64,000 bases of DNA from Candidatus Aminicenantota bacterium (GTDB lineage Bacteria; Acidobacteriota; Aminicenantia; Aminicenantales; UBA4085): NCBI GenBank assembly GCA_003141555.1, contig PLMN01000007.1, forward strand, positions 70,514-134,513, in the 5' to 3' direction. The position numbers and the translations under genes were made by a program. The notes under the pieces were generated by a model. That model did not search any database. It was given only the letters and a program-made list of their open reading frames with translations, and was not told the origin of the DNA. The first letter of the stretch is position 1. Each line of letters opens with the position of its first letter. Positions 23,681-49,443 of this stretch are shown in pieces.

Positions 23681-23751
23681 TGAAAAAGGGGACACAGAAC
23701 ACTCGCTTCCCTTCAACAAAGCGAATTCGGGGTTCTGTGTCCCCTTTTTCA
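23681..23751. repeat. Repeat family C: REP-like hairpin
   Basis: TGAAAAAGGGGACACAGAAC (23681-23700) and its perfect 20-base reverse complement (23732-23751) flank a 31-base loop. The TGA at the right edge, read on the minus strand, is the stop codon of rlmB. A second copy lies at 48080-48150. The GGGGACACAGAACC core resembles REP sequences found with RAYT transposases, from general knowledge. Confidence 0.8.
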
Positions 23752-44763: not shown

Positions 44764-47040
44764 ATGAAAACTCCTCCCCCGATCGACGACGCTTTCGCGG
44801 AATACGCCGAGCTCGCCCGAACCCAAGGGACGCAGACCGCGACGCCCGGGTCGACCGCCCCTGCCGCGCCGGCCCCCCAACCCAAGCCCGATGAATTCAA
44901 GTATATCGGCAAGGCTACGCCCCGGGTCGACGGCCGAATGGTCGTCACCGGCGCAGCCCGCTACACCCACGATCTCGCTTTCGGCGACATGCTGATCGGG
45001 AAGATCCTCCGCTCGCCGCACGCCTGCGCCGACCTGGTTTCGATCGACCTGTCCGGCGCGCTGGCTCTCCCCGGAGTCAAGGCCGCCCTGAAGCTCAAGG
45101 AGGGCCGGATCCGGTGGGCCGGCGAGCCCGTAGCGGCCGTCGCCGCCGTGAGCGAGAGCCGGGCCGAGGAGGCGCTGGCCCTCATCAAGGTCGAATACAA
45201 GCCGCTGCCCCACGTCACGGCTCCGGACAAGGCCATGGAAGCGGGAGCGCCGCTCGTCCAGGACCAGGGCAACGTCATCAAGTCCAACGACTACGCCCGG
45301 GGCGACGTCGAAAAGGGCTTCAAGGAGGCCGATGTCGTCTTGGAGCGCACATATAAGACATCGTGGGAAGTCCATCAGCCGACCGAGACCCACGGCAGCG
45401 TCGCCCGTTGGGACGGCGACGACCTCACGGTCTGGGATTCGACCCAGGCGGTCCAGTCCATCCGCGACGGCTTGGCCCGCGCGCTCTCCATCCCGGCCGG
45501 CCGGGTGAAAGTCCTCAAGCACTACATGGGCGGCGGTTTCGGGAGCAAGCTCAACCTGGGAGACTACACGGTCACGGCGGCCAAGCTGGCCAAGGAAACG
45601 GGCCGCCCGGTCAAGATCACGCTGACCCGCCGTGAGAACTCGATATGCGTCGGGTACCGGCCGACCGCCTGGATGACGGTCAAGGCCGGCGCCCGCAAGG
45701 ACGGCACGCTGACCGCCCTGTCGGTCAAGAGCTACAATTGCGGCGGCGTCGGCCGGGGCGACCGCGTCTCCGAGCCCTACTCCGACATGTATGCCTGCCC
45801 GAACGTCAAGATCGAGGAGTTTTCGGTCTTCGTCAACGCCTGCGCGTCGCGCGCGACCCGCGCCCCCGGCCACACCCAGGCTACCCTCGGCCTGGAAGGG
45901 ATGATGGAGGAGTTGGCCGCCGCGCTGGGCATGGACCCGCTGGCCCTCCGGATGAAGAATTTCGCGGCCAAGGACAAAGGCGACACGGGGATCCCCTACT
46001 CCACGAAGGGCCTGGAGCAGTGCTACAAACTCGGCTCGGAGAAAATCGGCTGGGACCGCCGCAACAAGAAGCCGGGCGGGGGAAGCGGCAAGGTTCGGAC
46101 GGGCCTCGGCATGGCCAGCCAGATCTGGCCCGGCGCCGGCGCGCCCGGGACGCTGGCCGACGTCAAGCTCTACCCCGACGGGAGCGTCGAGGTGGAATGC
46201 GGGACGCAGGACATCGGCACGGGCACGCGGACGCACATCGCCGTCGTGGCCGCCGAGACGCTCGGCCTGGAGCCGAAGGACATCATCGTTCACATCGGGA
46301 ATTCGGACCTGCCCTGGGCGCCGATCTCGGGCGGCAGTATGACCACGCCGTCCGTGGCCCCGGCCGTGCGCGACGCCGCGCTCAAGGCGGCCGAACATCT
46401 CAAGAATCTCGCCTCCAAGAAGCTCGGCCTGCCGCCGGCGGAGATCGTCCTCGAAAACCGGAAGGCGGCGTCCAAGGCCGACCCAACCAAGGCGATCGAG
46501 CTCAAGGAGCTGGCCCGCGGCCTCCCGCGGCCCCTGCCCTTCCACGGGGAGCGGAGTAATTATCCGTCCACCTTCGCCTTCCAGACATTCGGGGTCCAGT
46601 TCGCCGAGGTCGAGGTGGACACGGAGACGGGAAAGATCAAGGTCAAGAAGGTCGTCGCGGCCCACGACATCGGCCGGGTGATCAATCGCCAGACGGCCGA
46701 AAGCCAGGTGCTGGGCGGGGTCGTCCAGGGGATGAGCGCCGCACTCTTCGAGGAAAAGATCATGGATCCGCGGACCGGGACCATGGTCAACCCGAACTAT
46801 CACGACTACAAGGTGGCCACGGCCATGGACATCCCCGAGATCGTGCCGCTCTTCGCCGACGTCATCGACGAACGGCTGAACAACCTCGGGGCGAAGGGCC
46901 TGGGCGAACCGGGGCGGATCCCCGCCTCGGCCTGCATCGCCAACGCGGTGTACAACGCCCTCGGGGTGCATGTCCGCGAGATCCCGATGACCCCGGCCCG
47001 CGTCCTGGCCGCCCTGAAGCGAAAGGAGGCCCGGCCATGA
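44764..47040 (+). CDS. Molybdenum cofactor-binding large subunit of a PaoABC-like aldehyde oxidoreductase
   Basis: 758 residues, starting 1 base after the Fe-S subunit stop. A Pro/Ala-rich N-terminal tail (20-45) precedes the aldehyde oxidase a/b hammerhead domain (about 48-155) and the molybdopterin-binding domains (about 165-745). Visible cofactor or active-site blocks: MGGGFGSKL near 257, CASRATRAPGHTQATLG near 360, GSGxGxxxQ-like GTQDIGTGTRTH near 480 and the GLGEPGRIP active-site glutamate near 718. These hydroxylases use water to oxidise aldehydes or N-heterocycles. No signal peptide of its own; it would be co-exported with the Tat subunit. Confidence 0.92.
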   Translation: MKTPPPIDDAFAEYAELARTQGTQTATPGSTAPAAPAPQPKPDEFKYIGKATPRVDGRMVVTGAARYTHDLAFGDMLIGKILRSPHACADLVSIDLSGALALPGVKAALKLKEGRIRWAGEPVAAVAAVSESRAEEALALIKVEYKPLPHVTAPDKAMEAGAPLVQDQGNVIKSNDYARGDVEKGFKEADVVLERTYKTSWEVHQPTETHGSVARWDGDDLTVWDSTQAVQSIRDGLARALSIPAGRVKVLKHYMGGGFGSKLNLGDYTVTAAKLAKETGRPVKITLTRRENSICVGYRPTAWMTVKAGARKDGTLTALSVKSYNCGGVGRGDRVSEPYSDMYACPNVKIEEFSVFVNACASRATRAPGHTQATLGLEGMMEELAAALGMDPLALRMKNFAAKDKGDTGIPYSTKGLEQCYKLGSEKIGWDRRNKKPGGGSGKVRTGLGMASQIWPGAGAPGTLADVKLYPDGSVEVECGTQDIGTGTRTHIAVVAAETLGLEPKDIIVHIGNSDLPWAPISGGSMTTPSVAPAVRDAALKAAEHLKNLASKKLGLPPAEIVLENRKAASKADPTKAIELKELARGLPRPLPFHGERSNYPSTFAFQTFGVQFAEVEVDTETGKIKVKKVVAAHDIGRVINRQTAESQVLGGVVQGMSAALFEEKIMDPRTGTMVNPNYHDYKVATAMDIPEIVPLFADVIDERLNNLGAKGLGEPGRIPASACIANAVYNALGVHVREIPMTPARVLAALKRKEARP

Positions 47041-48017
47041 AGGCCTTCCAATTCGGATCGCCGAAGTCGCTCGAGCAAGTGACGGCCTATCTGGCCGGCG
47101 CGGACGGCGACGTCCGGCTCATGGGAGGCGGGACGGACCTGCTGGGCGAGATCAAGGAGGGGACGATCCAGCCCGATGTGGTCGTCGATCTCAAGGCCGT
47201 CCCGGGCCTGGCCTTCATCCGCCGGGACGCGGACGGGCTTGCGATCGGCGCCTGCACGGCCGTGGCCGACCTGGCCGCGGACCCGGACGTCGCGCGCGAC
47301 TACCGCGGGCTGCACGAGGCGGCCGCGGTCGTGGCCTCTCCCCAATTGCGGAACATGGGCACGGTCGGCGGCAACCTCTGCCAGCGGCCGCGCTGCTGGT
47401 ACTTCCGCGATGCCGCGACCGTCTGCAACAAGAAGGGCGGGAGCCAGTGCTTTGCAGAACAGGGGCGCAACAAGTATCACGCCGTATTCGGCGGCGGCTT
47501 GTGCTGGTCCGTCTATCCGTCCGACCTGGCCCCGGCCCTGATCGCCCTCGAGTCGAAGGTCGTGGTCGCCTCGCCCCAGGGCGAACGGACGATTCCCCTC
47601 GCCGAATTCTACGCGCCGCCGATCGTCAACGTCCGGAAGGAGAACATCCTCAGTCGGCAGGACGTCGTGAAGGAAATCCGGGTGCCGGCGCCGAAAAAGG
47701 GCGACCGCGGCGCCTATGTCAAGTTCATGGAGCGCGGGGCCTGGGACTTCGCCGTGGTCTCCGCGGCCGTGAAGCTGACGCTCGCCGGGAACTCGATCAG
47801 TGACGTCCGCATCGTCTGCGGCGGCGTCGCGCCCGTCCCCTGGCGGCTCAAGGCGGCCGAGGACGCGCTCCGCGGCCGGACCGTCTCGGAGTCCGCGGCG
47901 GCCCAAGCCGCCGCCCGGGCCGCCGGCGACGCCCGCCCGCTCGCCGAGAACGGATACAAGGTCGACATCTTCAAGGCCGTCGTGGCGAGGGCGGTCCTCG
48001 CCGCGGCGAAGGGATGA
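47037..48017 (+). CDS. FAD-binding subunit with extra Fe-S loop of a PaoABC-like aldehyde oxidoreductase
   Basis: 326 residues, overlapping the large subunit by 4 bases. The FAD-binding domain has the LMGGGTDLLGEIK loop (28-40) and SPQLRNMGTVGGNL (101-114). A cysteine-rich insertion follows with C115, C120, C130, C138 and C156 (NLCQRPRCWYFRDA, VCNKKGGSQC, GLCWSVYPSDLA). This closely parallels E. coli PaoB (YagS) and the beta subunit of 4-hydroxybenzoyl-CoA reductase, where such a loop binds a [4Fe-4S] cluster. Gene order here is FeS-Mo-FAD, unlike paoA-B-C, and no PaoD/XdhC-type maturation gene follows; instead a composite repeat begins 28 bases later. Confidence 0.92.
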   Translation: MKAFQFGSPKSLEQVTAYLAGADGDVRLMGGGTDLLGEIKEGTIQPDVVVDLKAVPGLAFIRRDADGLAIGACTAVADLAADPDVARDYRGLHEAAAVVASPQLRNMGTVGGNLCQRPRCWYFRDAATVCNKKGGSQCFAEQGRNKYHAVFGGGLCWSVYPSDLAPALIALESKVVVASPQGERTIPLAEFYAPPIVNVRKENILSRQDVVKEIRVPAPKKGDRGAYVKFMERGAWDFAVVSAAVKLTLAGNSISDVRIVCGGVAPVPWRLKAAEDALRGRTVSESAAAQAAARAAGDARPLAENGYKVDIFKAVVARAVLAAAKG

Positions 48018-48046
48018 TCGAGTTGGTCGCGCGGGTCCTACTAGGC

Positions 48047-48255
48047 GGGTCCTGTCGCCGACCAGCCCCACCGGCCTCCGGAAAAAGGGGACACAGAACC
48101 CCGATGATGACCTGCTAAAAGTCGGCCGGCGTTCTATGTCCCCTTTTTCCAAAGCGCCCGGGTGGCGCCGACCGGGGCGCCCCAACGGCCGAAGCGAATG
48201 GGACCCTCGTCAGGGTGATGAGCGAAGCCGGTGGGGCTGGTCGGCGACAGGACCC
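48047..48255. repeat. Repeat family D: composite element enclosing a family-C hairpin
   Basis: A perfect 29-base inverted repeat (48047-48075 and 48227-48255) flanks about 150 bases that contain a complete family-C hairpin (48080-48150) and a GGCGCCGACCGGGG motif (48163-48176) shared with the D copy at 29087. It lies between the FAD-subunit stop and the C26-protein start. No open reading frame of note is inside. Confidence 0.8.
48080..48150. repeat. Repeat family C, second copy, nested in family D
   Basis: GGAAAAAGGGGACACAGAAC (48080-48099) is inverted at 48131-48150 with one mismatch. The loop is 31 bases, the same length as in the copy at 23681-23751, though the loop sequences differ. Confidence 0.8.
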
Positions 48256-48279
48256 GGGCGACTGATATAGGAGTCCAAG

Positions 48280-49443
48280 ATGCGCTTCAGAAAGACAGTT
48301 TCTCTCGTGATCCTCGTTTCGATGATCGCCGCCGGAGCCTTCGCCCAGACCGTCCCGGCGGCCAAGGGCAAGGCCGAGGCGCCGCCGCCCCGGTTCTTCG
48401 ACACCGCTCCCGAGCCGCACGCCAAAGCGCGGCTCACGGTCCTTTATCCGTCGGTGGGAACGCTCAAGGCTCTCATGGCGCTCAAGGAACAAGGATGGCT
48501 GCCCACCGAGAGCATCGAGATCGTCGGCGTCCACCACGCTAAGGAAAAGACCGACTACATTAGCGCGTACAAGTATGTCCAGGACAACAAGCTCGACTGG
48601 ATCAAGTTCCACGTCGTCTCGGCCGAGATCGGCCTGGCGGACATTTACAAACCCAACGCCGCCACCAAGGAGTTCGAGACGATTTTCGCCAAGTCCGACG
48701 GAGTGATCTTTTTCGGCGGGCCGGACATCGTCCCCGCGGCTTACGGCGAGAAAACGCATTTGCTGACGGTCATCGAGGATCCCTACCGCCATTACCTCGA
48801 GCTGTCCTTCGTCTTCCATCTCCTCGGCGGCTCGCAGAACGACGCAGCGCCCGCCCTCCTCGACAAACGGCCGGGCTTCGCCGTGCTCGGCATCTGCCTG
48901 GGGTGTCAGACTTTGAACGTGGGCACGGGCGGGACGCTGGTCCAGGACATCTGGAGCGAGACCTACGGCCTGAGCTTCCTCGAGGACGCGGTCGCGCTGG
49001 GCCAGCCCAATTGGCACACGAATCCCTGGCGAAGGCTCGATCCGCTCGACAAGAAGCTCCTGCCTTACATGCTCCACCCGATCAAGCTCGTGGACGGCGG
49101 AAAGCTCAGTGCCGGGCTCGGCTTCAAGGCGACCGACCAGCCATATGTCATGAGCGCCCACCACCAGGCCGCCGGAAAGATCGGGAAGGGGCTCCAGGTC
49201 GCGGCGACCTCGCTCGACGGGAAAGTCGTGGAGGCGCTCGGGCACGCGAAGTTCCCCAACGTCCTCGGCGTCCAATTCCACCCGGAATTCCCGATGCTCT
49301 GGGACGCGAAGACCGAGTACCATTTCACGCCGAAGGACAAGGATCTGTTCACGGTCAACGGCTTTCTCAAGTCCCACTCTCCCAGCCTCGAGTTCCACAA
49401 AAAGCTGTGGGCCTGGTTCTTCAAATCGGTGACAGTAACCTAA
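48280..49443 (+). CDS. Exported class I glutamine amidotransferase-like protein (peptidase C26 type)
   Basis: 387 residues, TAGGAG before the ATG. A signal peptide (to about residue 22) indicates a periplasmic protein. The core has the nucleophile elbow GICLGCQTLN (cysteine near 207), preceded by FFGGPDIVPAAYG, and a VQFHPEFP His/Glu block near 330. This is the triad of C26 gamma-glutamyl hydrolases such as PuuD. Export is unusual for this group. The last residues and stop (SVTVT plus TAA) are encoded by a family-A repeat end, so the C-terminus appears to have been altered by repeat insertion. Substrate unknown. Confidence 0.85.
   Translation: MRFRKTVSLVILVSMIAAGAFAQTVPAAKGKAEAPPPRFFDTAPEPHAKARLTVLYPSVGTLKALMALKEQGWLPTESIEIVGVHHAKEKTDYISAYKYVQDNKLDWIKFHVVSAEIGLADIYKPNAATKEFETIFAKSDGVIFFGGPDIVPAAYGEKTHLLTVIEDPYRHYLELSFVFHLLGGSQNDAAPALLDKRPGFAVLGICLGCQTLNVGTGGTLVQDIWSETYGLSFLEDAVALGQPNWHTNPWRRLDPLDKKLLPYMLHPIKLVDGGKLSAGLGFKATDQPYVMSAHHQAAGKIGKGLQVAATSLDGKVVEALGHAKFPNVLGVQFHPEFPMLWDAKTEYHFTPKDKDLFTVNGFLKSHSPSLEFHKKLWAWFFKSVTVT
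49423..49440. repeat. Repeat family A, partial end inside the C26 gene
   Basis: AAATCGGTGACAGTAACC is the exact reverse complement of 5358-5375. It encodes the last residues of the C26-type protein. Confidence 0.7.

Follow-up and report, generated by a model that had tools for sequence, protein, structure and literature searches.

A hairpin in the tip of a larger palindrome: two nested repeat families and a probable insertion-sequence landing site in a Candidatus Aminicenantota genome

REPs associated with RAYT transposases, and the BIMEs in which REPs are paired in alternating orientation, have been described in bacterial genomes (PMC2817692). Several elements of the IS110/IS1111 group target REPs, among them ISPa11, IS621, ISPpu9 and ISPpu10 (PMC1525189, PMC11187229). 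In the account of ISPa11, all six copies lay in a REP, between bases 6 and 7 (PMC1525189). IS1111-type elements are described as having subterminal repeats plus 7 and 3 extra bases, no target duplication, and a non-coding region after the gene from which a guide RNA is made (PMC11187229). Nesting of small repeats is also on record: pneumococcal BOX, RUP and SPRITE repeats are reported as inserted into one another (PMC3049150), and YPAL of Yersinia lies at or near dyad symmetries (PMC2229807).

The locus presented here lies in a window of 64,000 nucleotides (C17:70514-134513) from the genome of a Candidatus Aminicenantota bacterium (the own genome, G000; 3.79 Mb, 33 contigs). Contigs are written as C with a number, C alone denotes a hairpin, and L-numbers denote loci; positions given without a contig refer to the window. 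An inverted repeat enclosing a second palindrome had been reported at 48047-48255, and this structure was confirmed. The outer arms (48046-48078 and 48224-48256) are 33 nt long and 97% complementary, with one mismatch. Counted from 48046 they contain 30 uninterrupted paired bases, and the 29 given in the preliminary description are correct within its limits. Inside the outer arms lies a second inverted repeat (48080-48103 and 48127-48150) with arms of 24 nt that are 92% complementary. The copy of the inner palindrome reported at 23681-23751 was also present, as a solo C hairpin on the plus strand (L024) that lies outside D and was assigned by sequence and C pattern.

In a BLAST search of the 211-bp block against the own genome, 98 matches were obtained. 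Query positions 1-105 and 114-211 matched separately, and a full-length match was listed for the window copy alone. Because these two parts occur separately, the reading of the block as a single MITE-like element with terminal inverted repeats was rejected; the outer arms come from two units of a second palindrome, D. The window copy is a pair of D units in opposite orientation. The first is a truncated D with C in its tip (a DC hybrid), of which the right half is missing; its 33-nt left arm occupies 48046..48078 (+) and its C hairpin 48080..48150 (+), with a loop of the group found in C-in-D copies. An 8-bp spacer, AAAGCGCC, follows at 48151..48158. The second unit, at 48159..48256 (-), is a complete, inverted 98-bp D whose tip lacks C and which is 99% identical to the copies at C25:56667 and C2:168661. 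These assignments were based on BLAST for both D units, on sequence and anatomy for the left arm and the spacer, and on sequence, C pattern and loop group for the hairpin. The window copy is BIME-like in that two units of one palindrome stand close together in opposite orientation. The same order, DC followed by an inverted D, was seen a second time at C2:46528-46787, with ~70 bp between the units and a shortened left arm. The outer arms match each other because both are D left arms near the family consensus. Their perfection had been taken to suggest recent mobility or purifying selection; recent movement of this copy is not supported by it: the 33-base arm equals the consensus and occurs without mismatch in four other full D copies and in two further arm copies on C31.

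The block sits between two called genes, an intergenic location that was examined at the window block alone. Upstream, 47037..48017 (+) encodes the FAD-binding subunit of a molybdopterin dehydrogenase (PF00941, PF03450); downstream and co-directional, 48280..49443 (+) encodes a class-I glutamine amidotransferase-like protein (PF07722, PF00117). The block lies 28 bp past the upstream stop and 23 bp ahead of the downstream start. Folded as RNA, it reached -148.5 kcal/mol, with a z-score of -12.96 and none of 200 shuffled sequences equally stable. The orthologous gap in the same-genus genome G001 measures ~20 bases, contains neither D nor C, and is too diverged for base-by-base alignment to the window site. 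After the FAD-subunit gene of G003 (L249) and G004 (L248), which belong to two other genera, the gap carries a different GC-rich sequence that appears palindrome-like by eye. The block may have been kept for a role in the transcript, either attenuation or RNA stabilisation, between the dehydrogenase gene and its amidotransferase neighbour. The co-directional genes at short distances, the very stable fold and the palindrome-like sequence in the same gap of G003 and G004 are consistent with such a role. However, the gap of the same-genus relative does without a palindrome, and we regard this explanation as distinctly unlikely.

D is a 98-bp imperfect palindrome. In the own genome 16 full copies without C were found at 93-100% identity, the window's included, and a seventeenth, containing masked bases, at 83%; these counts are lower bounds, as scoring did not cover every first-look candidate. 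Among full-length relatives, identity reached 89% (G003) and 84% (G004, G007), and some match to D was present in 10 of the 39 genomes searched, own genome included. An alignment of 22 copies from four genomes (16 from the own genome and 6 from relatives) showed compensatory changes at 10 of 31 pairs, a count that ignores the relatedness of the copies. L059 (masked bases) as well as L096 and L105 (match not where cut) were left out of this alignment. D is probably an older, structure-conserved palindrome of this bacterial family. Around CACCCTGACGAGG, the core of D recurs with different arms in another genus of the family (L097 in G011, L098 in G002). A larger repeat, F, of about 340-430 bp has D as one end and, in some copies, a short piece of D arm as the other; its four copies are L041 (C4:90489-90921), L053/L086 (C19:86452-86787), L060 and L034. 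A flank family, E, adjoins seven D copies. A search of four loci against RNA families gave one microRNA-family match, at 31.9 bits where 150 were required, which was taken as chance.

Both palindromes proved to be multi-copy families, as the preliminary description had proposed; a lack of further copies in the genome would have refuted it and was not what the searches showed. With up to two mismatches, the C motif (the inner arm) occurred 39 times forward and 40 times reverse in the own genome, compared with 1 and 2 times for a reversed control pattern. In the loci examined, 37 hairpins fitted the 71-bp C pattern; the loop was 31 nt in 34 of them and 32 nt in 3. Three of the 37 (L001, L006 and L080) run into an insertion sequence (IS), and contig ends interrupt a few further C copies. 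Nineteen of the 37 hairpins were D-associated on the basis of their alignment scores; one of them, L011, abuts a C stub next to a D arm and was dropped from this count, leaving 18. For random flanks, used as a yardstick, the 99th percentile of the score lay at 24 on the left and 30 on the right, and isolated values reached 54 and 92, probably because the random piece happened to coincide with a genuine D. What stands of the reported nesting is thus the recurrence of C in D, with 18 of the 37 C hairpins adjoining D arms, and not the outer arms as the ends of one enclosing element. C is rare in relatives. With one mismatch allowed, G001 had two hairpins, G003 and G029 had one unpaired match each, and 35 of the other 38 genomes had no match. 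A genome collection, from which entries for the own genome or a very close one may be missing, contained the exact two-arm pattern in two stretches, both from Candidatus Aminicenantes isolate Chersky_507.

In the two-armed DC hybrid, C is preceded by the D left arm, is followed by the D right half, and replaces 19 bases (GCTCATCACCCTGACGAGG) of the D tip. Six such hybrids have both D arms nearly whole, and the junction and the 19-base replacement are common to all of them. Inside D, C points in one direction in 15 of 18 cases; L055, L067 and L070 have the opposite orientation. On a tree of C sequences, itself weak with 24 of 31 inner branches lacking support, the C-in-D label took 6 changes compared with 12.3 after shuffling, and none of 500 shuffles was as low. 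The D arms were compared by C status as well. Their nearest-neighbour score was 13.2 of 24 compared with 12.8 under permutation (833 of 2000 permutations as high), and DC as a separate group by D arms was rejected on this result. Eight two-armed DC units were tested, including two reconstructed from contig ends, and in every case no other DC was closer than the closest C-less D. Since C-in-D sequences tend to group and D arms are not sorted by C, what moves from one D copy to another seems to be the C-bearing tip and not the whole hybrid.

On this reading C would have arrived in the tip of D, displacing 19 bases, and the C-bearing tip would then have reached other D copies, whose arms and flanks differ, with strand switching or short gene conversion between paralogous hairpins as the most likely route. 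Arms may have been rearranged in like manner: right arms resembling left-arm copies (L065, L067) and an inverted tip (L055), seen by eye, fit strand switching or conversion. The window copy, a C-bearing D without its right half beside a whole inverted D, would be one product of these events. Against tip transfer, the tendency of C-in-D copies towards one orientation and one loop group would also fit directed insertion by a specialised C.

Compound units moving together had been proposed as a second explanation of the nesting. Dispersal of DC as a unit would account for the identical junction in the six two-armed copies and in two IS-interrupted ones, and D with flank E or F does recur within larger repeats. 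As compound movement predicts, two F-flanked DC copies share a ~45-base block that is missing from two F-flanked C-less copies. Independent entries of C had also been considered for the F-flanked copies and were dropped, as the four flanks offered too few informative sites (2, 1 and 1) and the shared block groups the two DC copies. However, a dispersing compound is at odds with D arms that are not sorted by C status. The arms of the DC at C13:90158 are identical to those of the C-less L044/L045, which carry the same E flank, and those of the DC at C4:90489 are identical to those of the C-less, F-flanked L034. Some facts thus favour compound movement, but the C-bearing copies form no separate group by their D arms, and we consider it unlikely.

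A further alternative is that C is a mobile hairpin inserting alone, and repeatedly, into the tips of extruded palindromes, be they D, older C or small palindromes, as single-strand (HUH/RAYT-type) transposition would permit. The flanks of solo copies point in this direction. Beyond the first two, 17 solo C hairpins averaged 1.76 contiguous complementary flanking pairs compared with 0.36 after shuffling (0/2000). L068, which has 13 flanking pairs, may be a D remnant; without it the values were 1.19 and, with shuffled partners, 0.32 (0/2000), and without L068, L074 and L080 they were 1.29 and 0.32 (1/2000). Such flanks could nevertheless have grown later, after insertion, by strand switching. 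At C12:211138 an older C encloses another C between its arms, and the G001 orthologue is a single C; one of the two Chersky_507 stretches yielded the same alignment. The inner loop at this site resembles the G001 loop, however, and arm duplication would explain the site too. At C9:47803 a C stands beside a C stub that adjoins a D arm. No clean empty site for C was found there, the G001 gap holding other repeat-like sequence, and at C9:44037 one flank only could be aligned. Simple insertion leaves the loss of 19 D bases at the junction unexplained, and C-in-D copies favour one loop group and one orientation. Repeated insertion of C by itself is possible but doubtful, and passage of the tip between D copies remains the preferred reading.

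The preliminary description had suggested looking for a Y1 (RAYT) transposase gene flanked by the same arms. The own genome has two Y1 transposase genes, one of them at C22:34963-35676; they scored 58.9 and 52.9 bits with the REP-associated NCBIfam model, below its cut-off of 80. Each is bounded by inverted repeats of its own, one by GGAGACACAATACC and the other by a 27-bp GGTGACAGTAACC repeat. At this second gene (L085, 5388-6068) the 27-bp inverted repeat, AAATCGGTGACAGTAACCTGATTTCCG, is perfect, and pieces of it recur at the contig ends C28_end and C32_start. Within 10-11 kb around both genes C and D gave short, weak matches only; a cognate RAYT flanked by C or D was not found among these two genes, and C does not share with RAYT-associated REPs the feature of flanking a Y1 gene of its genome. 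Twenty Y1 loci were scored for GGGGACA or TGTCCCC within 350 bp, in windows that assume 1,500 flanking bases, missing at some loci. The motif occurred on at least one side in 13 and on both sides in 8, compared with a distal background of 0.39 per 700 bp; the set includes one locus of the own genome, which has none. C resembles the GGGGACA-type repeats found beside Y1 (RAYT) genes in relatives, and it is probably a hairpin of that type.

The contig ends of the own genome (65 read, without C7_end) linked C to a mobile element. Six ends exit C into (C)TTCTATGATGGCGAA, towards CTTCTATGATGGCGAA, and six terminate at GAAAA/AGGTAGCATGATAGC. The outgoing class is uneven: past C, one base is visible at C27_end and two at C19_start, and C13_end shows a single C arm. 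Among 94 genomes, the 18-base outer end sequence was found exactly in G004, G007, G018 and G076. In G004 both ends bound an element of ~1.3 kb (1,297 bp, measured from the outer edge of one search pattern to that of the other), which encodes a 344-aa IS110-family transposase (NF033542, 195.9 bits with a cut-off of 140; PF01548, PF02371). A group II intron and a DDE transposon are alternatives for an unassembled repeat of this kind, and both were dropped upon the finding of this transposase. In the own genome no match to PF02371 (Transposase_20) was obtained and the IS interior is not in the assembly; this would be expected if the element had collapsed out of the assembly, and is not proof of it. 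The ends follow the IS1111 rule: the relatives' copies have ATGAT(A/G)GCGAAACGC, the subterminal inverted repeats are extended by 7 bp on the left and 3 bp on the right, and in the own genome the flanks GGAAAA and AGGGGACACAGAAC join to GGAAAAAGGGGACACAGAAC, an intact C arm, without target duplication. Other shared contig-end sequences of the own genome (L164-L223), namely GGGGTTCGACAGTCATAGAC, GCTGGTGTATAAGGATGTTCGC, GTCGTGTCAACTAATGTTCGC and CAGTAGTGTC, suggest further unassembled repeats.

Short-read assembly can be misled by palindromes, and the contigs of this metagenome-assembled genome do end at repeats. An artefactual origin of the hybrid structure and of the contig-end pattern is hardly credible, however: the contig that contains the window copy is 243 kb long, with the copy in its interior, DC was found in many contexts, exact matches to the outer 18 bases of one end class exist in other genomes, and the assembled G004 element agrees with the two classes of ends.

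The gene of the G004 copy is followed by a non-coding stretch of ~170 nt. All four relatives' copies, two of which are near-identical, have in this region a 10-nt slot between constant blocks. The slot matched its own target at 10 of 10 positions in G018, 8 of 10 in G004 and 4 or 5 of 10 in G027, with cross matches of up to 8 of 10; four element copies among 142 genomes are too few for guide/target statistics, and pairing between slot and target is suggestive only. Elements of this IS type in relatives occupy different recurrent sequences. In G018, five of eight IS ends follow ggcttccatg (L229, L237, L244, L245, L246), and in G076 all three follow a closely similar palindromic sequence ending in taa (L230, L238, L241).

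At least two of the six IS sites of the own genome have the C target within D. A rare paired change, CCAACCCC and GGGGTGCCCC, is common to C1_start and C29_start, which are probably the two halves of one DC. With the insertion point and the ends visible in the contig ends, the C arm would be the target of an IS110/IS1111-type insertion sequence, for which we infer, in the own genome, a transposase and a guide that matches GTGTCCCCTT; an RNA-guided IS probably uses C as its landing site. In the window, 12 contig ends from elsewhere in the genome predict an empty landing site, GGAAAA/AGGGG, at 48080..48090 (+), with break points between 48085 and 48086 and, in mirror position, between 48144 and 48145.

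Taken as a whole, the scheme of an older D, a C in its tip, transfer of this tip, a rearranged window copy and a C arm serving as target of an IS110/IS1111-type element is somewhat more probable than its opposite. A more general proposal, that C targets hairpin tips and not a sequence (D, older C, small palindromes), that palindromes stack in this way, and that an RNA-guided IS110-family element has specialised on C, is tentative and rather improbable. The natural series of empty site, D, D plus C, and D plus C plus IS allows one hairpin to be followed, independently of the arms, as it spreads through the tips of another hairpin family. It bears on how REP-like repeats multiply and on why RNA-guided IS110-type elements land in them.

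Like the RAYT-associated REPs and BIMEs described in PMC2817692, C and D are small, multi-copy palindromes with opposite-orientation pairs and compensatory arm changes, and GGGGACA-type repeats lie near Y1 transposase genes in related genomes. Among the differences, C and D, at 71 and 98 bp, exceed in length the REPs listed in that account, both Y1 genes here are flanked by other repeats, and one family sits in the tip of another. As with the REP-targeting IS110/IS1111 elements described, subterminal inverted repeats are present, target duplication is absent, and insertions fall in one palindrome family; the assembled G004 copy has an IS110-family transposase and a long non-coding region after the gene. 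Unlike in those elements, the target is a hairpin that itself lies in D at some of the sites, and the interior is unassembled in the own genome. Small non-autonomous repeats nested in or adjoining other palindromes are shared with the BOX, RUP, SPRITE and YPAL cases as described, from which this locus differs in its fixed insertion point, its 19 replaced tip bases and its many recurrences. No replacement of a REP tip by another REP came up in the literature searched, although a published case may exist. Each layer has precedents; tip replacement and stacking look new. Compared with the literature searched, the new features seem to be the repeated, position-fixed replacement of the tip, a tip that changes hosts independently of the arms, and an IS in the inner hairpin.
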